This document shows, piece by piece, positions 22,723 to 45,935 of a stretch of 64,000 bases of DNA. Location: contig NZ_FQWQ01000001.1 of assembly GCF_900129725.1 (NCBI RefSeq), positions 1,860,001 to 1,924,000 on the forward strand, read 5' to 3'. Below the pieces are notes generated by a model, which was not told where the DNA came from, searched no databases, and was given only the letters and a program-made list of their open reading frames with translations. This DNA comes from Chryseolinea serpens (GTDB taxonomy: Bacteria > Bacteroidota > Bacteroidia > Cytophagales > Cyclobacteriaceae). Within the stretch, counting starts at the first letter, position 1. Every line of letters begins with the position of its first letter. The position numbers were made by a program, and so were the translations under genes.

Positions 22723-25374
22723 CTATTCATATTTTAAGGTATCCACAGGATTTGAACGCGCTGCCTTTACAGCCTTCAGCGCTACGGTGATCACCACAAT
22801 CGTGCCGCTGATCAACAGACCGGAAAGAAAATAAAGCGGACTCCAAGCAATGCGAAACGCAAAGTTCTGGAGCCATTGGTCCACGATCAGGTAGGTGATC
22901 GGGGCGGCCAACAGGAATGCGGCCACCACCAGCAACACATATTCTTTGGAGATCAGGTAAAGGATGCTGCTCACCGATGCGCCCAAAACTTTCCGGATTC
23001 CTATTTCCGCCAGGCGTTGTTCGGCGATAAAGGAGACCAGGCCATATAAGCCCAGCACCGCCGTGAAAATAGAGAGCACCGAGAAGATCATGAATACTTT
23101 ACTGAGTCGCCGTTCGCTGCTGTATACCTGGTCGATGGATTGATCCAGGAAGTGAAATGAAAGGGGCTTCTCGGGTTCAAATCTTTTCCATTCCCGTTCA
23201 ATCGCGGCCAGGGCTTCGGCGGTCTTGCCTTTCTCGACTCTGACGGCCGCATACCACCGCGGCCAGCCAAACCAGATGATGATGGGGTCGATTTTTTTCT
23301 GAAGCGGCTCAAAGTTGAAATCTTTCACAACGCCGATCACGCTACCCAACTTCACCGGCCGGCCGGCGTGGTCAAGCGCTTTCCCTACCGGTTCGTCCCA
23401 TTGGAAAGCGCGTGCAGCGGCCTCGTTGATGATAAATCCGGACGTGGAATCCGTGGCATGGTCGCGCGAAAAATCGCGGCCCTGTACGATCTCCAGGCCC
23501 ATGGTCTTCACAAAGTCGTGGGTGACATTGAGGATCTTTACAAACTGTGTCTTCTCCTTTCCTTCCACGGTGAAGCTCATAAACTGCACTTCCCTACCGA
23601 TCGGTTCCGACACGGACGACACACTGACGATGGAGCTCTCCGACAACAAGTTGTTCTTGAAAGCAAAATAGGATCCCGGCACACTCGTTCCCCGGATGGT
23701 CACCATGATGATCTGGTCTTTGTCGTAGCCCAGTGATTTGTCCTGGATAAAACGAAGCTGTCGGGCAATGACAATGGTGCCGATGATTAGGAAAATAGAG
23801 ATCGCGATCTGTGCCCCCACCAGGAGTTTCCGGAAATCTCCATTCCCACCCTTGCCGGATTTCCAGACACCTTTTAAAACCCGCTGCGGCTCGAAGGAAG
23901 AAATGAAAAACGCCGGATACGCGCCCGACAAAATCCCGACAAGAATGGTAAACAAAAAAATGCCTCCCAGGAGAGATGCGTTCGCCCGCACATCCAACGA
24001 CAGCGAAACGTCCAGCAGGCTGCTGAACAACGGCAGCATCAAGGGAAGGATCAAAAACGCGAAACACAGCGCAATCATACAGACCACCACCGACTCGAGG
24101 ATAAACTGCAGCCTCAGGTGCCACTTCAAGGCCCCCAGCACCTTGCTGATGCCGATCTCCTTGAACCGGCGCGAGGCCGTGGCCATGGTCAGGTTTATAA
24201 AATTGATCGCCGAGATAACGAGCACCAGGATGCCTACCGATATAAAAATGTAGAGATTCCGGATGTTGCCATTCTGTGCGAGATCCGTATTGTAGTCAAA
24301 CTCCGAGTGCAAGTGCACATCGTGGAGCGCCTGAACATAAAATTTAGCGTTGAAGTCTTTTTGAAAATCCGGAAGCTTGTCGGTAGCAATTTTGTTGATG
24401 CCGGCCTCGATGATGGGCACCTTCAAGGGATCTTTGACCGTGAAGTAGGTCCAGAACCAGTCGTTGTTATACTCCTCCAGGAATTTTGTGTCCTTGAACA
24501 CACCCGAGCTCGCGATGTTGGAAAGGGGAATAACAAAGTCGAACTGGATGTGTGTGTTGGATGGCAGATCGCGCACCACACCGGTCACTTCCAGGTCGGT
24601 CTGGTTGTTGAAGCGGAGTGTTTTGCCCAGGGCACTTTCGGATCCAAAATATTTCTCTTCCATTTTTTTTGTGATCACCACGGCATTGGGATGGCCCAGC
24701 GCGTTTTCAGGATTGCCGGTCAAAAACGGAAAGTCGAAAAGATCAAAGAATGAGGAGTCTGCAAAGATCACTTTCTCTTCGTAGAAAATATTTTCGTTGT
24801 AACGGAACGTCGGAACCATCCGCGAATATTTATAATTGATGATCCGGGTGTAGTGTCCAACGTCTTCGTTGAAACGTGCTTTGATCTCGGGACCAAACGC
24901 CGGAAAGGTAGTGGGAATATGGTTGGTGGTCCCACCCACCGTGGACGACGCGGTGATGCGATAGATCGAAGCCGATTGCGTAAACATTTTGTCATAGCCC
25001 TGCTCGTGCCGGAGATACAGTGCGATCACCATAAAACAGGTCAGTCCCAGCGACAACCCCACAACGTTTATGGTGGCATGGAAGCGATGCTTGTTCATGT
25101 TGCGAAGCATCATTTTCAATATGTTTCGGAGCATAGTGGCTGCGTTATAATTTTCGGATTGGAGAACCTTGTTTTGCAAATCAGGCCAGTGTGCCGGGTC
25201 GATGTTCCGGATCACCGCTTCATAGGCTTTCTTGAAGGCAATGCCCTCTCCCACCCGCAGCTCCACTTCACAACACACATGATCGACGAGCTCTTCAAAA
25301 AGATCGCCGCCGGCCAACCCCTTCGTTCGCAGATCATAACGGATATAATCGATTTCGCTCCTGGATAAGGGCAT
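22723..25374 (-). CDS. FtsX/MacB-type ABC transporter permease with N-terminal prefix domain
   Basis: The 883-residue protein has a soluble helical prefix of about 80 residues (YIRYDLRTKGLAGGDLFEEL), then the Bacteroidota permease body: a first membrane helix near residue 105, a MacB-like periplasmic domain, a block of FtsX helices (FINLTMATASRRFKEIGISK), a second periplasmic domain and a final FtsX block (RLAEIGIRKVLGAS). There is no ATPase domain, so it needs a MacB/LolD-like partner encoded elsewhere. It follows a PadR gene with a 3-bp gap and is certainly co-transcribed with it. Likely role: export of, or response to, an envelope-active compound. Confidence 0.9.
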   Translation of the reverse strand: MPLSRSEIDYIRYDLRTKGLAGGDLFEELVDHVCCEVELRVGEGIAFKKAYEAVIRNIDPAHWPDLQNKVLQSENYNAATMLRNILKMMLRNMNKHRFHATINVVGLSLGLTCFMVIALYLRHEQGYDKMFTQSASIYRITASSTVGGTTNHIPTTFPAFGPEIKARFNEDVGHYTRIINYKYSRMVPTFRYNENIFYEEKVIFADSSFFDLFDFPFLTGNPENALGHPNAVVITKKMEEKYFGSESALGKTLRFNNQTDLEVTGVVRDLPSNTHIQFDFVIPLSNIASSGVFKDTKFLEEYNNDWFWTYFTVKDPLKVPIIEAGINKIATDKLPDFQKDFNAKFYVQALHDVHLHSEFDYNTDLAQNGNIRNLYIFISVGILVLVISAINFINLTMATASRRFKEIGISKVLGALKWHLRLQFILESVVVCMIALCFAFLILPLMLPLFSSLLDVSLSLDVRANASLLGGIFLFTILVGILSGAYPAFFISSFEPQRVLKGVWKSGKGGNGDFRKLLVGAQIAISIFLIIGTIVIARQLRFIQDKSLGYDKDQIIMVTIRGTSVPGSYFAFKNNLLSESSIVSVSSVSEPIGREVQFMSFTVEGKEKTQFVKILNVTHDFVKTMGLEIVQGRDFSRDHATDSTSGFIINEAAARAFQWDEPVGKALDHAGRPVKLGSVIGVVKDFNFEPLQKKIDPIIIWFGWPRWYAAVRVEKGKTAEALAAIEREWKRFEPEKPLSFHFLDQSIDQVYSSERRLSKVFMIFSVLSIFTAVLGLYGLVSFIAEQRLAEIGIRKVLGASVSSILYLISKEYVLLVVAAFLLAAPITYLIVDQWLQNFAFRIAWSPLYFLSGLLISGTIVVITVALKAVKAARSNPVDTLKYE

Positions 25375-36379: not shown

Positions 36380-36411
36380 CAGAATGTCTACAGAATAGCT
36401 CGCGTGCTTTG
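36380..36411 (+). promoter_or_regulatory. Direct-repeat promoter element, site A (EamA gene)
   Basis: CAGAAT-GTCTA-CAGAAT (36380-36396) is followed after 11 bp by TTTG. The start codon is 46 bp downstream of the 17-mer. Same element as sites B-E. Confidence 0.7.
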
Positions 36412-36441
36412 TGGTCGCTTCAAAACTCAAATACCTTTGCT

Positions 36442-36864
36442 ATGCAGCCCTGGATCCTCTACGCCATCATCTCGATGATCTTTGCCGGCCTCACGTCCGT
36501 GCTCGCCAAATATGGACTTCAAAACATCCATCCCGACCTTGCCCTGGGCATCCGCACGTCGATCATATTTATTCTTGTCGCTGCCGTCAATCTGGCCGGC
36601 GCTCGATTCAAAGAGCTTTCCAATCTGACTTGGCTCCAGGCAGGACTTTTAGTTGCCTCGGGCATCACCACCACGGTGAGTTGGATCTTTTACTACCGCG
36701 CCATGAAGGATGGCCTAGTGTCGTATGTGGCCGCCATCGACAAGGCCAGCATCTTGATCACGTTGCTCTTTTCATTTGTGCTTTTGAAAGAACCCGTTAC
36801 ACCAAAAATTCTGTTGGGTGGCTTTCTCATTTTTGCCGGTATGATCGTCTTGATCTGGAAATAA
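36442..36864 (+). CDS. EamA-type small multidrug/metabolite transporter
   Basis: The 140-residue protein is a single EamA domain with about five membrane helices, similar in layout to RhaT/YddG-like half-size transporters that work as dimers. It starts MQPWILYAIISMIFAGLTSV and ends GGFLIFAGMIVLIWK; the long in-frame start at 36409 adds non-membrane residues and overlaps the promoter element, so I reject it. Substrate unknown. It carries both a consensus promoter and direct-repeat site A upstream. Confidence 0.85.
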   Translation: MQPWILYAIISMIFAGLTSVLAKYGLQNIHPDLALGIRTSIIFILVAAVNLAGARFKELSNLTWLQAGLLVASGITTTVSWIFYYRAMKDGLVSYVAAIDKASILITLLFSFVLLKEPVTPKILLGGFLIFAGMIVLIWK

Positions 36865-37026
36865 CGGTTTTACAAAAATGCTCAAAACGAGCGATCGCCT
36901 TTTGATAAAGAATATAAGGCACCAGCATCGCTGATGACCAATTAAGTTCCCATTCATAAATGCGGAAATGCGAACACAATTGCAGCTGGTCTTGTAACAA
37001 ATAGCATAGCGGAGCGTCTTGGGATC

Positions 37027-37935
37027 ATGACGAACATCATTGAGACCAAAGATCTCAATTTCGGATTCAGTCCGTCTGTCAGGACGCTTCACCATCTGAA
37101 CCTGCAAATTGAAAGCGAGAGCATCTACTGTTTTCTGGGACCAAATGGTGCGGGGAAGACCACCACGTTACGGATCCTGCTTGGATTGTTAAAAGCAGAT
37201 CATCAACGCATATCTATTTTCGGACAGCATTTAAATTCCAACCGTCTCGCTATACTGAAACGCATTGGCTCCCTTATCGAACAACCTTCCTTGTATCATC
37301 ACTTAACGGGCCATCAAAATCTGGAGCTTTACCGGCTCACCTTTCGGTGTGACCAAAAAAGAATTCCGGAAGTATTAAGCATAACGGGCTTATCTGAGGC
37401 GCGCCACCAACTGGTAAAAACCTATTCGCTCGGCATGAAACAACGGCTGGCTATTGCCTTGGCGTTGCTGCACGATCCTGAACTTCTCATCCTGGATGAG
37501 CCCACCAATGGACTTGATCCACAAGGCATTATTGAAATCCGGGGATTGATCAAACAACTCAAAGAAGAATTTCACAAAACCATTCTTGTTTCAAGTCATT
37601 TGTTAAGCGAAGTCGAAAAGATTGCAACGCACGTTGGCATCCTTCATAAAGGATGTTTGTTGTTTCAGGGGTCAAGCCGGTCGTTAATGGAGATGAAATC
37701 CGAAAACACCGCTTTTGAATTGGAGTTAGATGCTCCTGAAAAGGCCATGCCTCACCTGGAGAATTCATTTAACGTGAGAAAGATCAGCGAGACAACCCTG
37801 TCCATTACCGGCATGACAAAGGAACAGGTGCCCGTCTTACTCGCCCGGCTTGTCAAACAAGATCTGCGAATCTACAGAGCTGCTTTCGGTACTTGTTCAC
37901 TCGAGGATCTATTTCTAGACATCATTCCATCATGA
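37027..37935 (+). CDS. ABC transporter ATP-binding protein
   Basis: The 302-residue ATPase has Walker A GPNGAGKTTT (38-47), a Q-loop IEQPSLY, the signature SLGMKQR (about 134-140), Walker B LLILDEP (153-159) and the switch histidine in SSHLLSEVE. It resembles ATPases of BcrA or lantibiotic-protection exporters. The downstream permease start overlaps its stop (ATGA), so the two are translationally coupled. Probable role: export or self-protection against a membrane-active compound; the substrate is not known. Confidence 0.93.
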   Translation: MTNIIETKDLNFGFSPSVRTLHHLNLQIESESIYCFLGPNGAGKTTTLRILLGLLKADHQRISIFGQHLNSNRLAILKRIGSLIEQPSLYHHLTGHQNLELYRLTFRCDQKRIPEVLSITGLSEARHQLVKTYSLGMKQRLAIALALLHDPELLILDEPTNGLDPQGIIEIRGLIKQLKEEFHKTILVSSHLLSEVEKIATHVGILHKGCLLFQGSSRSLMEMKSENTAFELELDAPEKAMPHLENSFNVRKISETTLSITGMTKEQVPVLLARLVKQDLRIYRAAFGTCSLEDLFLDIIPS

Positions 37936-38708
37936 CCCGTTCATTCCTGCTAAACACAAAGGCCGAAATCCTGAAATGCAGGAACACGGCGGCCGTATGG
38001 CTCACCCTGCTGGGGGCCGGATTTATACCCCTTGTCAATACGATTAAATGCCTGGCTCGTCCGGACTATTTTATCCCCAAAGTCCAGTCCGATCCGTGGG
38101 GTGTATACCTGGACTTCAATTGGCAGATTGCCGCGGGCTTTTTGTTGATCATGTATGTTGTTCTCCTCACCAGCCTGGTGGTTCAGATAGAATTCAGAAA
38201 CCATGCCTGGAAGCAGGTCTTTGCCTCCCCGCGGTCGTATGCCGACATCTTCTTCTCAAAACTGGTGACCCTTCATTTGCTGATGGTGTGTTGCTTTATT
38301 CTCTTTAACATTTTCACCCTCCTCAGTGCTTTTATCATCAACGTCTTTCAGAACCGATACAATTTCTCCTTCCACGCCATTCCTATAAACCTGATGTTCA
38401 CCTTATCCTTGAAAATGTATGTATCCATAGTATCCGTTATGATCGTACAATATTGCTTGTGTTTGCATTTTAGCAACTTCATGATCCCCATTGGCATTGG
38501 CCTGGGACTATTCACAGCAGGATTTATGATACGGCAATGGGAATACATTTACTTATACCCTTACCTGCATCCGATGTTGATCTATTTCCCAAACCCGGGC
38601 CTGGAAGCATCCGCCGCGCAAAAAGGTATGGTGAGTGCTATGGGCTGGTCGGCGACTGGAATATTAGCCGGCATTACGCTAACGGTCTCCCGGTTTGAAA
38701 AGGGCTAG
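37932..38708 (+). CDS. ABC-2 type permease
   Basis: The 258-residue integral-membrane protein starts MTRSFLLNTKAEILKCRNTA at the ATG overlapping the ATPase stop by 4 bp. It has about six membrane helices (for example AAVWLTLLGAGFIPLVNTI, FLLIMYVVLLTSLVV, LLMVCCFILFNIFTLLSAFI, IVSVMIVQYCLCLHF) like bacitracin/lantibiotic-type permeases. A longer frame from 37893 would overlap the ATPase more and is rejected. It forms the transporter with the preceding ATPase. Confidence 0.88.
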   Translation: MTRSFLLNTKAEILKCRNTAAVWLTLLGAGFIPLVNTIKCLARPDYFIPKVQSDPWGVYLDFNWQIAAGFLLIMYVVLLTSLVVQIEFRNHAWKQVFASPRSYADIFFSKLVTLHLLMVCCFILFNIFTLLSAFIINVFQNRYNFSFHAIPINLMFTLSLKMYVSIVSVMIVQYCLCLHFSNFMIPIGIGLGLFTAGFMIRQWEYIYLYPYLHPMLIYFPNPGLEASAAQKGMVSAMGWSATGILAGITLTVSRFEKG

Positions 38709-38721
38709 TTTGGCGGCGACT

Positions 38722-38757
38722 GACCCTCCTTCGCTGAAGCTTCGGGGGGCGAGCAAA
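38722..38757 (+). repeat. Short interspersed palindromic repeat, copy 2
   Basis: CCCTCCTTCGCTGAAGCTTC and the following GGGGGGCGAGC form a CCTCC/GGGGGG palindrome around GAAGCTTC, similar to 22599-22634. It lies between the convergent permease and HD-domain genes. Confidence 0.5.
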
Positions 38758-38769
38758 GAAGACGCCCTG

Positions 38770-39369
38770 CTACTCCTCCAACCGCGCCAAGTTCCTCTGC
38801 TTTACCGGCTCCCAATGCTCACGTGCATAGCCTGTATAATACACATGATTTTTAAAGAAGAAAATATTCTGCTTATTCCAGGCCCTCAATGTCATGGGCT
38901 TCCCGGTCAGCAACTCAAATTCTTTTTTAAGCAACAAGGACCACGTCTCATACTCGGCCGAACCCAGGTGACTCAAATCCGCGTCGCACAGGATTTCTTC
39001 CAGGAGTCCCACGGGACGTGCTGTGATCCGCGTGGCGTTGATGAGGCCTTCGATCTTAAAATAGAATTCCGGGGGCAAATTAAAATCACGCAAAAACCGG
39101 ACGGCTATCTTCACACTCTCCTGTTCATGGTTGGCGCCTCCCCTGATATAGCCGGTGTCGTGAAACCAGGCGGCGGTCAGCAACACCTCCACCGATGGCT
39201 CCTGAACATCGTAATGCGACGCCAACGTCCAGCACGCGCGGACCACGCCAACGGTGTGATTCAGGGTGTGGAAGGTGCGCGTGGCCGGAAGCTGGCTTCC
39301 CAAGAGATCCCTGACATAGGTTTCAACCTGCGTGAGAAGTTCGGAGCCGTAGGGATTTAGATTTTGCAT
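38770..39369 (-). CDS. HD-superfamily phosphohydrolase
   Basis: The 199-residue protein has the HD metal-binding pattern: H34 and H38 (HTLNHT), H70-D71 (WFHDTGY) and a later D129/D131 (CDADLSHLG). Such proteins hydrolyse phosphate esters, often nucleotides; the substrate is unknown. I start at 39369 because a longer frame from 39459 would overlap the response regulator gene by 62 bp. The regulator gene ends 28 bp upstream, so both probably share the transcript driven by direct-repeat site D. Confidence 0.85.
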   Translation of the reverse strand: MQNLNPYGSELLTQVETYVRDLLGSQLPATRTFHTLNHTVGVVRACWTLASHYDVQEPSVEVLLTAAWFHDTGYIRGGANHEQESVKIAVRFLRDFNLPPEFYFKIEGLINATRITARPVGLLEEILCDADLSHLGSAEYETWSLLLKKEFELLTGKPMTLRAWNKQNIFFFKNHVYYTGYAREHWEPVKQRNLARLEE

Positions 39370-39397
39370 GACGCTATTCAATTCTGGACCATGGGCC

Positions 39398-40072
39398 TCA
39401 TACCGAAAATTTATACCCCAACCCATACACGGTTTTAAGATAGTCTTCACAGCCGGCATCCGCCAGTTTTCGCTTCAGGTTTTTGATGTGGGAATATAAG
39501 AAGTCAAATTTATCCAGAAGTTCGGCATTGTCGCCCGACAGGTGTTCGGCGATGGCGTTCTTGGAGACGACCCGGTTTTTGTTGGCGAGTAGAAATACCA
39601 GGAGGTCGTATTCTTTGCGGGTCAATTCGATGACGTCGTCGTTCACCATGACGATCTTGCCATGTAAGTCGACGGATATTTCCCGGAACAAGATCTTGTT
39701 GCTGCCGCCAAATTGCTTCCTTCGAATGATGGCCGACACGCGGGCGCTGAGCTCGGGCAGATAAAACGGCTTGGCCAGGTAATCGTCCGCGCCCAGGTTG
39801 AGGCCTTGTATGCGGTCTTCCAGCGAATTGTTTGCCGTGATGATGATCACGCCGTCTGCCTTGCGGCTTTCCTTCAGTTTTTCAAGGATCTTCAGCCCAT
39901 TTCCATCGGGAAGGTTGATGTCGAGCAAAATGCAATCGTAGTCGAAGAGCAGAATTTTCTCGAGGGCGTCGTGTGCCGAGTAGGCAATTTCGCAAACGTA
40001 GCTTTCTTGCCGGAGAAACTGCGACATGCTCTTCACCATTTCCTTTTCGTCTTCAATAATCAGGATCTTCAT
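39398..40072 (-). CDS. OmpR/PhoB-family response regulator (no adjacent kinase)
   Basis: The 224-residue protein has a receiver domain with acidic pocket E7/D8, phospho-acceptor D51 (LLDINLPDG) and K in YLAKPF, then a winged-helix DNA-binding domain (ELTRKEYDLLVFLLANKN, VYGLGYKFSV). No histidine kinase gene is adjacent, so its partner is unknown. OmpR-type regulators bind direct repeats with an 11-bp period. Its own upstream region carries one such repeat (site D), and four other genes in this part of the window carry the same element. Confidence 0.94.
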   Translation of the reverse strand: MKILIIEDEKEMVKSMSQFLRQESYVCEIAYSAHDALEKILLFDYDCILLDINLPDGNGLKILEKLKESRKADGVIIITANNSLEDRIQGLNLGADDYLAKPFYLPELSARVSAIIRRKQFGGSNKILFREISVDLHGKIVMVNDDVIELTRKEYDLLVFLLANKNRVVSKNAIAEHLSGDNAELLDKFDFLYSHIKNLKRKLADAGCEDYLKTVYGLGYKFSV

Positions 40073-40145
40073 AGTGTCGGGTCCGCGAAAATTACGATCC
40101 TATCGGGGGGCACGGGGAGGCCGTGTAAATCGATGCCGCGAAAAG

Positions 40146-40176
40146 CAAATAAGGGCCCCATTCTGTAGAAATTCTG
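40146..40176 (-). promoter_or_regulatory. Direct-repeat promoter element, site D (response regulator)
   Basis: On the minus strand CAGAAT-TTCTA-CAGAAT (40176 to 40160) is followed after 10 bp by TTTGC. It precedes the response regulator start by 87 bp. Both hexamers are perfect here, as in site A. Confidence 0.7.
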
Positions 40177-40323
40177 AGTTTGAATAAATGGACGGGGACG
40201 GGGTCAAAAAGCCAAAATAAGGCCTCCCGCCGGACTATACTTCTGATGACCGGAAGTCGATTCTTATTTCCTCTCCGGCAGCCTATTTCCTATCTTGTTT
40301 TTATAAAAAAAACACAACCTCTT

Positions 40324-40617
40324 ATGATCATTGTTCACGACATTTTTGTCTGCAAACCCGGCAACGCCTCGAAGCTGGCCAAGAAATTCAAAGAAGGCAT
40401 GCAAGGAAACACCGAACTGGTCAACATTCTTACCGACATGACCGGTCAGTTCAACCGCGTGATCATGGTGACGCGCTATGATAGCCTCACGGCGTATGAG
40501 CAAAGCTGGGAGAAGTATAAAGAAAATTCAGAGGCCATGAAAAAGATGGCCGCGGCCATGGAAGGCTACCACGAGATGTATCTCACCGGATCGCGGGAGA
40601 TCTACCAGGTTTGGTGA
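40324..40617 (+). CDS. Small dimeric alpha/beta-barrel protein (NIPSNAP/ABM-like)
   Basis: From the ATG at 40324 the product is 97 residues: MIIVHDIFVCKPGNASKLAK, then RVIMVTRYDSLTAYEQSWEKY and YHEMYLTGSREIYQVW. This is the beta-alpha-beta repeat of ferredoxin-like dimeric barrels, found in monooxygenases and uncharacterised stress proteins. No catalytic residue can be named. The long in-frame start at 40180 would add unrelated residues and is rejected. It is a single gene converging with the DUF4407 gene 16 bp later. Confidence 0.75.
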   Translation: MIIVHDIFVCKPGNASKLAKKFKEGMQGNTELVNILTDMTGQFNRVIMVTRYDSLTAYEQSWEKYKENSEAMKKMAAAMEGYHEMYLTGSREIYQVW

Positions 40618-40633
40618 GCAACCCTCGCGACAG

Positions 40634-41686
40634 CTATTGCAACTCGTTGTCGAGCCGGGTAGCGATGAAAGTGCGTTCGTGTTGCGGGTAGGTGGCCGTT
40701 TTCTCTTTGGCCAGGGTGTTCATCCGCGCTTTCTCCTCGATCTCGTGTACGGTGAACTGATATTCTTCCACCTTCAGGAGATTGTCGTAAGGCCCTTTGC
40801 CGGCGATGAGTTTGACCAGCACGGGCGCGGTCTCGATCGCGATGAACAAAAGCATGATGAACAGGTGTGCCCAAAGGATCGCACTGCTCTTGGCCGTCAG
40901 GTGACTCAGCGCTTCGATGCGGGCGGCGGGGCCGTCGATCTTGTTTTGCTCCAGGTCGCCCAGGGCGCCGTTCATCTGTGTGTTGTTTTCGGCGACACTT
41001 TTTTCCAGTGCGGCGATCCGCTCATAGTTGTAGGCGGTCAAGGCTTTCAATTCTGTCTCGGCTTTATCGGCGTCCGCTTTTTTTACTTTATAGATGGGAC
41101 CCAGATTCTTTTTCCGGCTACCCCCGGTTCCATCGGCTTCCGCCTGGGCGGCACTGACCAGTGCGTCGCGTTGGAGGGCCTTTTGGGTTACTTCGGCTTT
41201 CAATGCATTTACAACGGTCTCCAGGCTGTCGCCCACGAACGCAAACCGGCTTCGCGTCAAGATTTCCTCTTCTTTGTAGGCTTTTTGTTCCATCGCCGCC
41301 AATTCCGGCGCGATCTCTTTTTCAAATATTTTGAGCTCCAGCGGCTTGGCGATGACGATGGAGATGAACACGGCCAGCACGATGCGGGGCGTGGCCATCA
41401 ACCATTCGCGCGCTGGTTTTCCTTCTTTGCGCATGCTGGACACGATGTAGCGGTCCAGGTTAAAGATCATGAGTCCCCACAACAGTCCAAAGGCGGTGGC
41501 GATCCAGAGGTTGTCGAAAACGGTGTTCAAAGCATATCCACCCGATAAGGCGGCAAACAAGCCCGTAAAGAAAATGGTAGCGCCAATGCCGGCGTATTTG
41601 CTGGTTTCGGATGGACATTTCTCAAGTATATGCCGATCCGCTCCCGAGCAAATCAGAAAAAACGTCGTGACCTTTTTCATGTACAT
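40634..41686 (-). CDS. DUF4407 membrane protein
   Basis: The 350-residue protein has two N-terminal membrane helix pairs (GIGATIFFTGLFAALSGGYAL, WIATAFGLLWGLMIFNLD, IVLAVFISIVIAKPLEL), a long coiled-coil region (about 125-250, rich in KADADKAETELKAL-type heptads) and another hydrophobic helix (ILWAHLFIMLLFIAIETAPV). This layout, including FNLDRYIVSS, is typical of DUF4407. Function unknown. MYMKK gives two possible starts, 41686 and 41680. A frameshifted CHASE2-like gene lies 149 bp upstream on the same strand. Confidence 0.85.
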   Translation of the reverse strand: MYMKKVTTFFLICSGADRHILEKCPSETSKYAGIGATIFFTGLFAALSGGYALNTVFDNLWIATAFGLLWGLMIFNLDRYIVSSMRKEGKPAREWLMATPRIVLAVFISIVIAKPLELKIFEKEIAPELAAMEQKAYKEEEILTRSRFAFVGDSLETVVNALKAEVTQKALQRDALVSAAQAEADGTGGSRKKNLGPIYKVKKADADKAETELKALTAYNYERIAALEKSVAENNTQMNGALGDLEQNKIDGPAARIEALSHLTAKSSAILWAHLFIMLLFIAIETAPVLVKLIAGKGPYDNLLKVEEYQFTVHEIEEKARMNTLAKEKTATYPQHERTFIATRLDNELQ

Positions 41687-41835
41687 AGTAACGGTGCGTG
41701 TGTTGCGGATATTGCTGTCGCCCGTTCAATAAAAGTGCCATGTTGAAAAAAGCGGTTGCCGGGGCCTGATGCCGGCAGCGATACCCGGGAAGTGTGCAAA
41801 TGTGAACAGGTGTTTGTACGGTCTGCGCTTCGGCT

Positions 41836-42854
41836 CTATACTGGTTTTGCCGTCGTATCGCTTGGTTTCCCGGGCATACTCACCGCCATCGTAAAGACGG
41901 TGGTGATCACCAGGATGACCGGCAGTTCATCCAAGGCCAGGAAATATCCCTTGTCAAAAAGTAAGACCAGCATGAGTGAACCTGCGATCGTAAAGAGAAC
42001 AAAAATCAACGCTGCAATGATCAAGTTTACCGCCAGCCATCTGGTGCGGATAAAAGTTATGATGATCACGTTCAGCAGGGTAAAAGCCAATAGGATAAAT
42101 ATCCTGAATACTTCTCCGATCTCATCAATATAATCCTGATCACGGATGGTGCGGATAATGTTTGCGCTTACTTCTGTGTCGTAGAGATCTGGCAGAAGGT
42201 TTTCTTGTCCGTAGTACTCATTCAGGGGAGTGATGCGGCATTGTTTATAGTAATACAGACTATCCGTCAGGTAATCGCCCAGGTAACCTACTAAGATAGT
42301 TTTACCCTCCAACGCTCCGTACCAAAAAGGTGTATCCTTCAATTCAGCCCTCATAAATAGGGTCTGCTGTTCTGGTGCATAGTTGATCATCTCCCGGTCG
42401 TTTCCTCTTTGCCTGAAACCGGTCAACAGGAATTCGAAGTAATCCCTCCTGGAACAATCAAAGTGTGTGACTACGTTGCCGTCGTCTATGATTTCGCTCA
42501 ACCCCCCCTGCCCTTCCGCTGGCAATCTACAAAAAAGATATTCGGCACAGAGGCATACTGCGTCACGAGGGCACCCACGTCTTCTGTGTAGTGGCACAGG
42601 TTTACACCCACAACCGCAGGCTCGCAAAGTAACAGAGAGTCGAGTTTGGGTTTTAATTCATCGGCCTCCAATCGCCCGATGTTCAACATCAGCATCTCTC
42701 TTTGTGCCGGTGGTTGGGTTCGGATGTAAAACAATTTTTCGCGGGTCATTTTTGTGATGTCCAGACTGAACAGCCGGATGTTCACGAAATGGTATACCGC
42801 GACAATCCCCAACGTGACCAGGAGCGCGATGGCGTACTTATAGAATTTTAGCAT
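41836..42854 (-). pseudogene. CHASE2-like membrane protein interrupted by a frameshift in a G7 tract
   Basis: Two overlapping leftward frames form one protein. The first (42498-42854) begins MLKFYKYAIALLVTLGIVAV with one membrane helix and ends FVDCQRKGRGG at a premature stop; the second (41836 onwards) continues LSEIIDDGNVV, ILVGYLGDYLTD, SANIIRTIRDQDYID and three C-terminal membrane helices. That order (helix, CHASE2-like sensor, three helices) is typical of CHASE2 proteins, here with no output domain. The break is in a run of seven G's (C's at 42502-42508 on plus); eight would restore the frame. It may be a real mutation, phase variation or a sequencing error. Confidence 0.7.
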
Positions 42855-43184
42855 CCAACAGGATTTAAGTAAAGCTTATTCGTCTGAACATCGTATCCAT
42901 GGTCCAACCCGAGCCCTAACGATTTGAACCGTGAAGGCGCCCGTCGTGCGTCGGCCCTGTTTCTCTTCTGTTACATTACAAAAAATTTAGCTCAATTTTA
43001 TTATCACGGAGGCTTTAAGTTTGAACCCGGCCTTTCCTAAACTGGCCACTCTTCCAAGAACAGGCGCGCTAAATCCAAAAAGTCTACAGAATCCCGTTTT
43101 ACCTTCAACGCGGTCAGGTTAGGATGGACAATTCTATTTCCCTTAGCCACCAGCATTTCTCCACCTCATAAATCATTCAGAATC
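42855..43184. other. Divergent intergenic region
   Basis: This 330-bp gap lies between the CHASE2-like gene and the YncE-like gene. It holds direct-repeat site E at 43076-43107 and otherwise no frame or hairpin that I would call. Confidence 0.5.
43076..43107 (+). promoter_or_regulatory. Direct-repeat promoter element, site E (YncE-like gene)
   Basis: CAAAAA-GTCTA-CAGAAT (43076-43092): the second hexamer is perfect and the first is degenerate. It is followed after 11 bp by TTCA (within TACCTTCA). It is 92 bp upstream of the start codon. Confidence 0.55.
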
Positions 43185-44225
43185 ATGAAAAACTATCGCC
43201 ATTCGTTCGTTGGAATATTTGGACTTGTCCTGCTACTGCTAAGCGCCACCCTGCATGCCCAAACCCCGGGCTATCACCTCGTGAAGAAAACCGTCATCGG
43301 TGGAGAAGGAGGTTGGGACTACCTGACGGTGGATCATGACAACAACAAAATTTTTCTCTCGCATGGAAGCCAGGTGGAGGTCCTGGATTTGAAAACCCAT
43401 AAATCCCTGGGCGTGATAAAACCTACCAGCGGCGTGCATGGCATCGTGGCCGTGCCGAAAATCAACAGGGGCCTGACCACCAACGGGAGAACGAATACCG
43501 CTACCATTTTCGATTTGAAGACCCTTGCTCCTATTGTTGAATTGCCCACGGGGAAAAATCCTGACGCCTTGCTCTATGATCCTTATTCCGACCGTGTCTT
43601 TGTATTCAACCACAGCGGCGCCAGCGCGACAGCGATCGATATCGCCAAAGGAAAAGTATTGGGAACATTGGATTTGGGTGGCGATGGCGTGGAGGCCGGC
43701 GTGTCGGATGGAAAGGGAACCATTTTTGTGAACCTGGAAGACACTCATGAGATCGTCTCGTTTGATGCCAAATCGTTGGCGATTAAAAACCGGTGGAGCG
43801 TTGCTCCGGGCGAAGAGCCCACGGGCCTGGCCATCGACCCTTCCACGCATCGTTTGTTCAGTGTTTGTCACAATGAACTCATGATCATCGTGGATGCCAA
43901 TACCGGTAAGGTCGTTTCGAAAGTGCCCATTGGCAAACGCGTGGACGGCGTGGTCTTTGATGCCACATCAAAATTTGCCGTCAGTTCCAATGGTGAAGGA
44001 ACGATGACGGTGGTGAAAGAAGTTTCGCCGACCGAATTCACCGTCGTTGAAACCGTTGCCACGGCTCCGGGGGCAAGGACGTTGACGATGGATCCTGTGA
44101 CGCATCACATCTTTCTCTCAACCGCACAATACGGTGAGACACCTGCCGCGACAGCTGACAATCCGAATCCCCGGCCCAGCGTTGTGCCCGGAACCTTTAT
44201 GCTCCTGGAGTACGGCAGAGATTAA
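43185..44225 (+). CDS. YncE-like beta-propeller protein
   Basis: The 346-residue secreted protein has a signal peptide (MKNYRHSFVGIFGLVLLLLS, cut after LHAQ) and repeated propeller blades with the pattern NKIFLSHGSQVEVLDLKT, VFVFNHSGASATAIDIAKG and HRLFSVCHNELMIIVDANTG. Such YncE-like propellers are periplasmic binding or scaffold proteins; no enzymatic residue is evident. It precedes the PepSY-like gene by 90 bp on the same strand. Both have direct-repeat promoter elements, E and C, so they are probably transcribed separately but co-regulated. Confidence 0.85.
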   Translation: MKNYRHSFVGIFGLVLLLLSATLHAQTPGYHLVKKTVIGGEGGWDYLTVDHDNNKIFLSHGSQVEVLDLKTHKSLGVIKPTSGVHGIVAVPKINRGLTTNGRTNTATIFDLKTLAPIVELPTGKNPDALLYDPYSDRVFVFNHSGASATAIDIAKGKVLGTLDLGGDGVEAGVSDGKGTIFVNLEDTHEIVSFDAKSLAIKNRWSVAPGEEPTGLAIDPSTHRLFSVCHNELMIIVDANTGKVVSKVPIGKRVDGVVFDATSKFAVSSNGEGTMTVVKEVSPTEFTVVETVATAPGARTLTMDPVTHHIFLSTAQYGETPAATADNPNPRPSVVPGTFMLLEYGRD

Positions 44226-44260
44226 TTTCTAATCTCATTTTCTCGCCATTTCGGGTTGTA

Positions 44261-44292
44261 CAGAAAATATACAAAATCGCTTTCGTCCTTTA
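44261..44292 (+). promoter_or_regulatory. Direct-repeat promoter element, site C (PepSY-like gene)
   Basis: CAGAAA-ATATA-CAAAAT (44261-44277) followed after 11 bp by TTTA. The match to the consensus is weaker than A, B and D, but spacing is the same. The start codon is 38 bp further on. Confidence 0.5.
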
Positions 44293-44315
44293 GATCAAAC
44301 AAAAAATCAAAACGT

Positions 44316-44777
44316 ATGAAATTCACGATGCTATTTTTTGTGCTGGCCCTGAGTTCGGGTTATGCACAAGCACAGAAGTTAAAGGAAAGCGAAGTTCCGG
44401 CGGCGGTGAAGAGCGCTTTTGCAAAACGCTTTCCCGCGGTGAAGCAAGCCACGTGGTCGAAAGAAAATGCTACAGCGTTTGAAGCGGAGTTTGCGGTCAA
44501 TCACCTGGAGCAGTCCGCCAACTTCGACGCGGCAGGCACGTGGTTGGCCACCGAGACAGAGATCAAGAAAGGGGATCTTCCTTCGGCCGTGCAAGCTACG
44601 CTGAGCAAGGAGTTTGCAGGCTACAAGATCGAAGAGGCCGAAAAAGCGGAAACCTCAACCGGTGTATTCTACGAGGTAGAGGTTGAAAAAGGAAAGACAA
44701 CATACGAAATTCAAATTTCACCGGAAGGAAAGGTGCTGTCGAAGAAAGAAGAGAAGGAAGGAGCAGAAAAAGACTAA
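44316..44777 (+). CDS. PepSY-like periplasmic protein
   Basis: From MKFTMLFFVLALSSGYAQAQ the 153-residue product is a secreted protein with two PepSY-like repeats (VPAAVKSAFAKRFPAVKQAT and LPSAVQATLSKEFAGYKIEE, each followed by beta strands). These small proteins in Bacteroidota are thought to bind or inhibit other periplasmic proteins; direct evidence is lacking. The longer start at 44256 would place the direct-repeat element inside the gene, so I reject it. A strong terminator follows. Confidence 0.85.
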   Translation: MKFTMLFFVLALSSGYAQAQKLKESEVPAAVKSAFAKRFPAVKQATWSKENATAFEAEFAVNHLEQSANFDAAGTWLATETEIKKGDLPSAVQATLSKEFAGYKIEEAEKAETSTGVFYEVEVEKGKTTYEIQISPEGKVLSKKEEKEGAEKD

Positions 44778-44794
44778 AGCCCCATCCATTCCAG

Positions 44795-44826
44795 GACGGA
44801 CCCCTCGCGGGGGTCCGTCTTTTATT
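44795..44826 (+). terminator. Terminator after the PepSY-like gene
   Basis: GACGGACCCC (44795-44804) pairs with GGGGTCCGTC (44810-44819) around the loop TCGCG, followed by TTTTATTTTT. Confidence 0.93.
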
Positions 44827-44860
44827 TTTGCTTGGTACGGTCTGTGTCGTTTCTTCGGCA

Positions 44861-45898
44861 CTACACGCCGAAGTCTATCTTCTTAACAAGTATCCCGCCC
44901 TTGAAATAATACGCTTCAAACGAATGCGAATCGATGCCGAATACTTCCTCGATGCGTATCGTTTCTGCATCTCCCTTTTCGGTCAGGATATACTTCCGTT
45001 GCGCGGTTGACAAATCGGACAACGGGACCTCTTGTTCGTATTCAAACCCTTCATCGTATTCAAATTCAAAAGCCAGTTTTGCATTTTGCCATTGCAACTT
45101 TGATTCAACGCCTTTGGCAATGGGCGAGAACGACAAGTAGGCGTTGTTCTCGGACATCAACCGGCCACCCGATTGCGTGAGCATCACGATCCCGGAAAGG
45201 ACCATCGTGGCATAACCCACGCTTCGGAAAAAGGATTCGCTGATCTTTTTCAACCCCCATTTCATAAACCACGACGACAACAAACCGGCAATGGCAACCG
45301 AAGCTCCCAGTCCAATCACTTTGCCGGAGATCAAACCAAAGGAAGCATACAATCCCAGTTTGATCACGTGAAGAATCAATTCGTTTGCTGCGCGGGTGGC
45401 CACGATTTCTTCCTTGGAGAGTCCATAGCGCAGATAGAAACGATTGAACAACAGTCCTACAGCGCCCGTGAGTCCCGAAAGAAAGCCTGCCAGGAAGCCA
45501 ATGACGAGCAAGAGTTTGTGCGAAGAATGTCCGGGGGCCGGGGCTTTGCTTGTTTTTTTAAAAAGTGCGGGAAGGTTGCTGATCAGGAAGACCCCCATCG
45601 CGATCTCCAGGTAAAGCGGGTTCACAAAATGCAGAAGCCAGGCCCCGAGAAACACGGCGGGCAAGGCCGCTGGAACAAACCAGCGAACAACGTCCCACCG
45701 AATCCGGGAAAAGAAAACCGCTATGCGCGAAATCGACGATGCCACGGTACCGATGGACAGCGCCGCCGGCAGCTGTGTCGCCGGCAAGAACAAGCCCAGC
45801 ACGGGCATCAACAACAGGCCGGCGCCACCGCCACAGACCGCACTCAGGGAAAAAGCCAGGAAGGCACAAACAAAAAGGAGCCAAAGCGATGTTATCAT
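44861..45898 (-). CDS. TauE/SafE-family exporter with C-terminal extension
   Basis: From MITSLWLLFVCAFLAFSLSAV the 345-residue protein has about eight membrane helices typical of sulfite or organosulfonate exporters, including CGGGAGLLLMPVLGLFLPAT and FLSGLTGAVGLLFNRFYL. After about residue 250 it continues with a soluble domain of roughly 95 residues (WQNAKLAFEFEYDEGFEYEQ, EVFGIDSHSFEAYYFKGGI) not expected in the basic family. The start at 45898 leaves site B 5 bp upstream of the ATG; the transcript may be leaderless. Substrate is unknown. Confidence 0.85.
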   Translation of the reverse strand: MITSLWLLFVCAFLAFSLSAVCGGGAGLLLMPVLGLFLPATQLPAALSIGTVASSISRIAVFFSRIRWDVVRWFVPAALPAVFLGAWLLHFVNPLYLEIAMGVFLISNLPALFKKTSKAPAPGHSSHKLLLVIGFLAGFLSGLTGAVGLLFNRFYLRYGLSKEEIVATRAANELILHVIKLGLYASFGLISGKVIGLGASVAIAGLLSSWFMKWGLKKISESFFRSVGYATMVLSGIVMLTQSGGRLMSENNAYLSFSPIAKGVESKLQWQNAKLAFEFEYDEGFEYEQEVPLSDLSTAQRKYILTEKGDAETIRIEEVFGIDSHSFEAYYFKGGILVKKIDFGV

Positions 45899-45903
45899 GC
45901 GGG

Positions 45904-45935
45904 CAAAGCACCCTAGCAATTCTGTACATTTTCTG
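45904..45935 (-). promoter_or_regulatory. Direct-repeat promoter element, site B (TauE gene)
   Basis: On the minus strand CAGAAA-ATGTA-CAGAAT (45935 to 45919) is followed after 11 bp by TTTG (45907 to 45904). The start codon lies 5 bp beyond the TTTG box. Confidence 0.65.

Follow-up and report, generated by a model that had tools for sequence, protein, structure and literature searches.

A tandem 11-bp repeat in front of genes of Chryseolinea serpens, and the OmpR/PhoB-type regulator family and PorY-family kinases to which it probably belongs

The stretch of DNA analyzed here (herein the window) comprises 64,000 nucleotides of Chryseolinea serpens (contig NZ_FQWQ01000001.1, positions 1,860,001 to 1,924,000) from a genome of 8.36 Mb in 10 contigs. 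It carries five 17-bp elements of the form CAGAAT-N5-CAGAAT (sites A through E). These elements are very likely the tandem sites of a Bacteroidota family of OmpR/PhoB-type regulators, which is partnered by PorY-family kinases and acts on a set of envelope genes; in C. serpens, the regulator encoded in the window would share a kinase with a paralogous pair. Judged from sequence, this looks like a control circuit shared across many relatives that has lost its kinase partner at this place. OmpR-type regulons with tandem boxes are a well-known kind, and we found no description of this regulator family, its box, or its pairing with PorY-family kinases in the parts of the open-licence literature consulted.

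A first-pass annotation of the window had proposed the five elements, and all of them are present on the strands and at the coordinates that it gave (Table 1). Each points at a start codon 20 to 92 bases away, as proposed; for EamA and TauE, the distances refer to the starts of the orthologues in the congener G061. Allowing up to three mismatches to the consensus CAGAATNTNTACAGAAT, the 64-kb window contains six matches (the sixth, at 24975 on the reverse strand, has three mismatches), a number never reached in 100 shuffles of the window (mean 1.11, largest 4). An exact TTTG follows three of the sites, again as annotated (A, offset 11; B, offset 10; E, offset 11). Sites C and E had been called degenerate; this is true of C but not of E, the weaker sites by mismatch count being C and D (two each).

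Genome-wide, there are three copies of CAGAATNTNTACAGAAT with zero or one mismatch, all of them in the window, and 14 with two mismatches, of which two are in the window. At the three-mismatch level the total reaches 187 copies, compared with 105 for the motif read backwards, so most three-mismatch copies are due to chance. A relaxed motif, CARAANNTNTACARAAT, is matched exactly six times, at sites A through E and at one place on contig C8. Its 18 one-mismatch copies are at chance level, given 19 in the backwards control at up to one mismatch (the control is not split by mismatch). Twelve of the two-mismatch copies lie outside the window, and we viewed six of these places (C7:1081233, C8:46744, C10:2855087, C7:454209, C10:974475, and C10:2561436). 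A regulon-type context is found only at the first two: C7:1081233 precedes the gene of an outer-membrane protein, arranged divergently to that of a paralogous regulator, and C8:46744 precedes a PAP2-family gene. At the exact C8 copy (L062 6745-6761, reverse strand), the PAP2 gene is divergent from another two-component system, the kinase of which is CopS-like (below the family cut-off). A global regulon was considered and rejected, since the three-mismatch matches are mostly chance; we count seven sites, five in the window and one each on C7 and C8.

The sites are conserved in congeners, and all seven promoters compared keep 15 to 17 of the 17 site bases. G061 retains the cluster at 83 to 95% protein identity, in the order A-EamA-NIPSNAP-DUF4407 ... 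C-YncE-D-PepSY-E-TauE, with the regulator absent. In pairwise promoter alignments with G061, all 17 bases are kept at site A (flanks 74% identical), site C (flanks 77%; the next 16 of 16 bases are identical too), site E (flanks 72%), and the C8 site (flanks 78%); the C7 site keeps 16 (flanks 87%) and site D keeps 15 (flanks 68%). Site B, compared with the congener G060, keeps 17 of 17 despite flanks that align at only 34%. The chance origin of most weak matches in the genome might be taken to extend to the five elements, as dispersed repeats or accidental AT-rich matches; but they are intergenic, point at genes, and are kept in congeners while their flanks drift, and the probability that we give to this explanation is negligible.

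The 11-bp period recurs upstream of regulator orthologues. In all comparisons of spacing and strand we used one half-site, CARAWT, relaxed from the CAGAAT of the window after relatives had been viewed, and counted pairs with at most one mismatch within 200 bp upstream. In a first set of 35 regulator genes (30 family loci, four more, and one locus of genome G033; the window regulator and its paralogue are included), a pair with period 11 occurs in 23, whereas each of the other periods from 7 to 23 occurs in 1 to 4; at period 11 the reverse strand gives 1 of 35, and letter shuffles give 0.6 and at most 3. The second set comes from named genomes (Chitinophaga, Chryseobacterium, Flavobacterium, Pedobacter, Mucilaginibacter, and others), the loci being the best 80 of at least 592 and not a random sample. 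It comprises 59 loci, with L219 left out of the spacing test as too short and L215, titled Chitinispirillaceae, included. Period 11 is found in 33 of 59, and other periods from 7 to 19 in 3 to 11. Among the last 20 of the best 80 loci (33 to 41% identical, 19 of them titled outside Bacteroidota), the pair at period 11 occurs once. One locus of Pedobacter sp. L105 (L197 7977-10764) is arranged as regulator, inverted 499-residue open reading frame (ORF), short regulator-like ORF, and kinase, with a site before both regulator ORFs.

A promoter-like element often follows the repeat at a preferred distance. When distant sites were picked on half-sites alone (n = 68), the start of TTTG falls at offset 11 in 31, and 28 have a TAnnTTTG-like box at offset 6 to 8 (shuffled mean 2.5, maximum 7). 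TAnnTTTG is the primary sigma -7 element of Bacteroidota, in a promoter definition that includes a -33 element (PMC7366714). The first-pass annotation had recognized a pho-box-like layout, which gains support both from the 11-bp spacing upstream of orthologues and from the position of the -7 box, the latter not having been used to choose sites. When TAnnTTTG starts at offset 7 (TTTG at offset 11), the repeat would occupy the position of the -33 element, an arrangement compatible with activation through polymerase contact. A preferred distance from the 17-mer to a downstream box is also what -35/-10 promoters show, and the element could be read as part of a promoter for an alternative, extracytoplasmic function (ECF) sigma factor. 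We regard this as very improbable: the downstream box fits the primary sigma consensus (PMC7366714), and what lies upstream of it is a tandem repeat of 11-bp period that precedes genes of a single response-regulator family. In relatives L035, L036, L045, L052, and L059 the TAnnTTTG box ends a few bases ahead of the regulator start codon, so the regulator mRNA would be nearly leaderless.

Searches of larger genome sets give a similar picture. In 60 family genomes the pattern TTCARAWTTNCTWCARAWT (at most one mismatch) has 169 matches, compared with 38 for the backwards control; the 30 of these genomes with a regulator match at E 1e-60 contribute 108 (control 18). In 30 of the family-wide loci listed, exact matches are intergenic in 11 of 12 cases, and one-mismatch matches lie inside ORFs in 13 of 19, so that one-mismatch copies are mostly chance. 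The box combined with the -7 box (at most two mismatches) yields 61 matches in 42 of 296 genomes of the phylum, and the backwards control yields 3. Among 30 of these 61 that we viewed, 23 lie outside ORFs of at least 100 residues and 7 inside; the downstream gene encodes the regulator for 5 matches (of which two have identical sites), a PepSY-like protein for 4, a TonB outer-membrane protein for 3, and a PAP2 protein for 1. The remaining matches have other genes or none downstream, including one for an ArnT-like protein, which matches the NCBIfam ArnT model below its cut-off and has no Pfam match; a regular-expression search for ArnT-like neighbors in the distant loci found none.

The genes behind the sites belong to recurring families. 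Target families were defined from the source genome and G033 and then tested in the named distant loci, where ORFs (longest-ORF starts) were labelled by BLAST to a small protein set from the same two genomes, and a site was counted if it lay between positions -150 and +40 relative to the ORF start. A site is present before 36 of 73 target-family ORFs, compared with 52 of 602 unlabelled ORFs (P = 3e-16). By family, sites precede 11 of 20 PepSY-like, 8 of 19 outer-membrane protein, 6 of 8 PAP2, and all 4 LtaS-like ORFs; the numbers are small for YncE (2 of 6), TauE (1 of 3), HD (1 of 2), and EamA (1 of 5). A second PAP2 type has sites in 2 of 4, a second outer-membrane type in 0 of 2, and the regulator ORFs themselves in 32 of 62. 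Partner-type kinases (0 of 61), hybrid-kinase-like ORFs (0 of 11), and ATP-binding cassette (ABC) ORFs (0 of 7) have none in these loci. Homologues of the window genes also sit next to the regulator elsewhere: in the 60 fetched loci its flanks hold YncE in 5, TauE in 3, HD in 2, and EamA in 5. Flavobacterium laiguense (L206) has the order kinase-PepSY-YncE, with the YncE-like gene two genes behind the kinase; Chryseobacterium soldanellicola (L176) has kinase-outer-membrane protein-TauE-HD, its TauE homologue with a site of its own; and in G033 the EamA homologue lies two genes after the kinase. Footprints in congeners, spacing before orthologues, and enrichment before the same target families elsewhere all support the link to an OmpR-family regulator drawn in the first-pass annotation.

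The window regulator is a member of the OmpR/PhoB family. Both of its domains score above their cut-offs (PF00072, receiver, 98 bits; PF00486, winged-helix Trans_reg_C, 63 bits), and the phospho-acceptor aspartate and the active site are in place, with D8, E9, D51, and K101 among the invariant columns of an alignment of 11 sequences. It scores 155 bits with the Bacteroidota PhoB model (NF053854), below the cut-off of 270. In 59 of 60 distant loci (among the best 80 of at least 592), a related kinase follows the regulator, and all seven partner kinases scanned match the NCBIfam PorY family NF052314 with 408 to 463 bits (cut-off 350); one non-partner kinase (L062) has no match to NF052314 at E 1e-60. 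No kinase gene adjoins the regulator in the window, as had been noted: tblastn with the congener kinase finds none there, and its matches are, chance hits (E of at least 0.7) aside, limited to an unrelated hybrid kinase at ∼51 kb (E 3e-10). G060, whose regulator is 87% identical to that of the window, has the order HD-kinase-regulator-site B, and its HD gene behind the kinase encodes a protein 66% identical to the window HD protein. The 1272-bp kinase ORF of G060 is absent from the corresponding junction in the window, where the regulator stop overlaps ATGAG, the kinase start, and the HD start follows 27 bases later. The window regulator is thus an orphan because the kinase gene is missing where the congener has one.

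The source genome has two other PorY-family kinases (E 1e-25 or better to that of G060), each beside its own regulator, and no third at E 1e-25. The kinase on C7 is 68% identical to the G060 kinase; the other, on C8, is 32% identical. The C7 regulator, which keeps its kinase, is 78% identical to the window regulator and differs from it by one residue in the stretch taken as the recognition helix. With a threshold of E 1e-80, the C7-type regulator (with its kinase) is the only one found in G061, and the window type is the only one in G060. The simplest history, as judged from three genomes rather than from a tree, would be an old duplication after which different copies were lost. Since four of the sites (A, C, D, and E) persist in G061, where only a C7-type regulator was found, the C7 regulator probably reads these sites. 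The first-pass annotation had suggested a possible regulon of an orphan regulator: the five-gene regulon and its link to an OmpR-family regulator are supported, but the orphan probably does not have this regulon to itself.

A stronger version of this argument is that the C7 regulator alone controls sites A through E and that the window regulator is a decaying leftover, or an unphosphorylated competitor or repressor. The persistence of four sites in G061 without a window-type regulator would be expected on this account, as would the loss of the kinase from the window copy, and the only pairs in the genome found to keep such kinases are those on C7 and C8 (the latter with the 32%-identical kinase). 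Yet the window regulator is intact, close to that of G060, and retains its phosphorylation residues; dN/dS (the ratio of nonsynonymous to synonymous substitution rates) is 0.046 for the window regulator against that of G060 and 0.047 for the C7 copy against that of G061, although dS is saturated and most of the time covered may predate the kinase loss. Site B is moreover a perfect copy, suggesting that expression of the regulator is still controlled. We consider exclusive control from C7 possible but doubtful, and favor a regulon read by both regulators.

Several observations weigh against a regulon of this regulator family. Within the window, the -7 box is poor at sites C and D. Elsewhere in the source genome, an LtaS-like gene (L255, G000:C10:1415233) and a second PepSY-like gene (L253, G000:C8:659212) lack a site at up to two mismatches, whereas homologues in other genomes have one, and the strict phylum-wide pattern of box and -7 box has no match in this genome at all. 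In G060, which has the regulator-kinase pair and site B, a YncE-like gene is missing at E 1e-40, and the relaxed motif occurs in exact form at a single other place, ahead of an unrelated 505-residue ORF (G060:C9:154844; L136 6845-6861, reverse strand). Among orthologues, 12 of 35 and 26 of 59 lack a CARAWT pair; with two mismatches allowed, period 11 rises little above the rest in the first set (25 of 35, versus 9 to 20 for other periods), and in the second set the reverse strand gives 7 of 59 at period 11. The labelled target ORFs are not independent, many of them lying directly behind the regulator. The 30 family genomes in which the regulator has no match at E 1e-60 are still enriched for TTCARAWTTNCTWCARAWT (61 versus 20 in the control), so other regulators, or more distant orthologues, may read similar boxes. 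Lastly, the window regulator scores 167 bits with the PmrA model (NF007928), below the cut-off of 330.

Table 1. Sites, genes, and the kinase-deletion junction in the window (positions in the 64,000-nucleotide stretch; mismatches are to CAGAATNTNTACAGAAT)
Feature	Coordinates	Strand	Remarks
Site A CAGAATGTCTACAGAAT	36380..36396	+	45 nt before EamA start; TTTG 36408-36411; 0 mismatches
Half-size EamA transporter, 140 aa	36442..36864	+	PF00892; 95% identical in G061, 77% in G033
HD-domain protein	38770..39369	-	PF01966 (scanned as longer ORF to 39459); start 39369 inferred from G060 orthologue
Apparent kinase-deletion scar	39370..39401	-	ATGAG (39397-39401, overlapping kinase start), then 27 nt to HD start; junction compared with G060
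OmpR-family response regulator, 224 aa, no adjacent kinase	39398..40072	-	PF00072 and PF00486
Site B CAGAATTTCTACAGAAT	40160..40176	-	87 nt before regulator start; TTTG 40146-40149; 0 mismatches
Site C CAAAAAGTCTACAGAAT	43076..43092	+	92 nt before YncE-like gene; 2 mismatches
YncE-like beta-propeller, 346 aa	43185..44225	+	PF21783
Site D CAGAAAATATACAAAAT	44261..44277	+	38 nt before PepSY-like gene; 2 mismatches
PepSY-like protein, 153 aa	44316..44777	+	PF11396
TauE/SafE-family exporter	44861..45898	-	PF01925 (scanned as longer ORF to 45919); start 45898 inferred from G061 orthologue
Site E CAGAAAATGTACAGAAT	45919..45935	-	20 nt before TauE start; TTTG 45904-45907; 1 mismatch

Two further features lie between the genes of Table 1. 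An ABC transporter pair (37027-38708, forward strand) separates the EamA and HD genes, and no ORF at the matching places of G061 (L134) or G060 (L131) is labelled as ABC. At 41836-42854 on the reverse strand, two overlapping ORFs (263 and 118 residues) stand where G061 has a single 339-residue ORF (L134 8216-9235); by this comparison the window gene looks frameshifted.

In the mechanism that we propose, a regulator dimer would bind the 11-bp direct repeat (consensus approximately TTCARAWTTTCTTCARAWT) at the place of the -33 element, an arrangement suggested by OmpR/PhoB complexes such as that of PhoP. The bound regulator would recruit RNA polymerase to the TAnnTTTG -7 box, with TTTG ∼11 bases after the repeat, and so activate rather than repress its own gene and those for PepSY-like, TonB outer-membrane, PAP2, LtaS-like, EamA, YncE-like, and TauE proteins. 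After deletion of the local kinase gene, the window regulator would most likely take its phosphate from the kinase of the C7 pair, and both regulators would read the same sites.

As to function, PmrA is the best model for the regulator, PAP2, LtaS-like, TonB, and PepSY-like genes recur, and in the C7 kinase two hydrophobic segments flank a loop that, by eye, appears rich in acidic residues; these features suggest an envelope or lipid A response. By gene content, the role may be PmrAB-like, remodeling lipid A and the outer membrane, the PAP2 proteins being a weak LpxE match and the LtaS-like (sulfatase-family) match likewise lying below its cut-off. The same regulon could instead serve iron or metal handling. 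TonB-dependent receptors recur, and the PepSY-like locus BT0922-0923 of Bacteroides thetaiotaomicron is up under iron limitation (PMC10434189), a response that keeps iron handling a live rival. On the other side stand the frequent sites before PAP2 (6 of 8) and LtaS-like (4 of 4) ORFs and the one before an ArnT-like gene, the LpxE, LtaS, and ArnT matches all being below cut-off; a metal-handling role seems to us the less favored prospect, and envelope remodeling is the function that we retain.

The analysis describes a probable OmpR-type regulon of Bacteroidota for which there are a defined box, a preferred geometry of box and promoter, and recurring envelope genes, among them genes of unclear role (PepSY-like, half-size EamA, and YncE-like). 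For the PorY kinases as a family, it suggests which protein probably acts as DNA-binding partner, and the window offers a natural experiment in how a regulator persists once its own kinase is gone and a paralogous pair is still present. More tentatively, and at somewhat less than even odds in our estimate, PorY-family kinases may at root do the sensing for an envelope circuit that is PmrAB-like, spans the phylum, and has TTCARAWT-N3-TTCARAWT as its regulator box; Porphyromonas PorY (described as an orphan kinase that acts on PorX), its regulator lost, and the window regulator, its kinase lost and that of a paralogue shared, would then be mirror-image orphans.

Among known systems, PorY-PorX of Porphyromonas gingivalis resembles the present one in its kinase, since the seven scanned partner kinases fall in the NCBIfam PorY family. 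There, porX and porY lie apart and are termed orphans (PMC4800418), whereas the partner here is an adjacent OmpR-type regulator; no secretion-system gene is among the labelled targets, in an analysis that did not screen secretion genes for the box genome-wide. RprY of P. gingivalis is likewise an OmpR-type regulator without a linked kinase, and its candidate partner is the orphan kinase PG0052, i.e., PorY (PMC3646045, PMC5706477). Its described regulon, unlike that proposed here, concerns oxidative stress, sodium, and chaperones, and PMC3646045 uses none of the terms motif, consensus, or binding site. PmrAB (BasRS) of enterobacteria shares with the system described here an OmpR/PhoB regulator and a hexamer direct repeat; PmrA is the best NCBIfam match of the window regulator, and BasR is among its closest solved structures, after DrrD. 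The targets of PmrAB modify lipid A. The half-site, in contrast, is CARAWT here and YTTAAK for PmrA (PMC10927774). Also unlike PmrAB, the system here has a Bacteroidota -7 box and has PepSY-like, TonB outer-membrane, TauE, and YncE-like proteins among its targets. PhoP of Mycobacterium tuberculosis differs from the present system in half-site, promoter type, and regulon. The likeness would lie in the architecture of the complex, in which a tandem PhoP dimer occupies direct repeats with an 11-bp period (a 7-bp motif and a 4-bp spacer) and strict spacing (PMC4832192).

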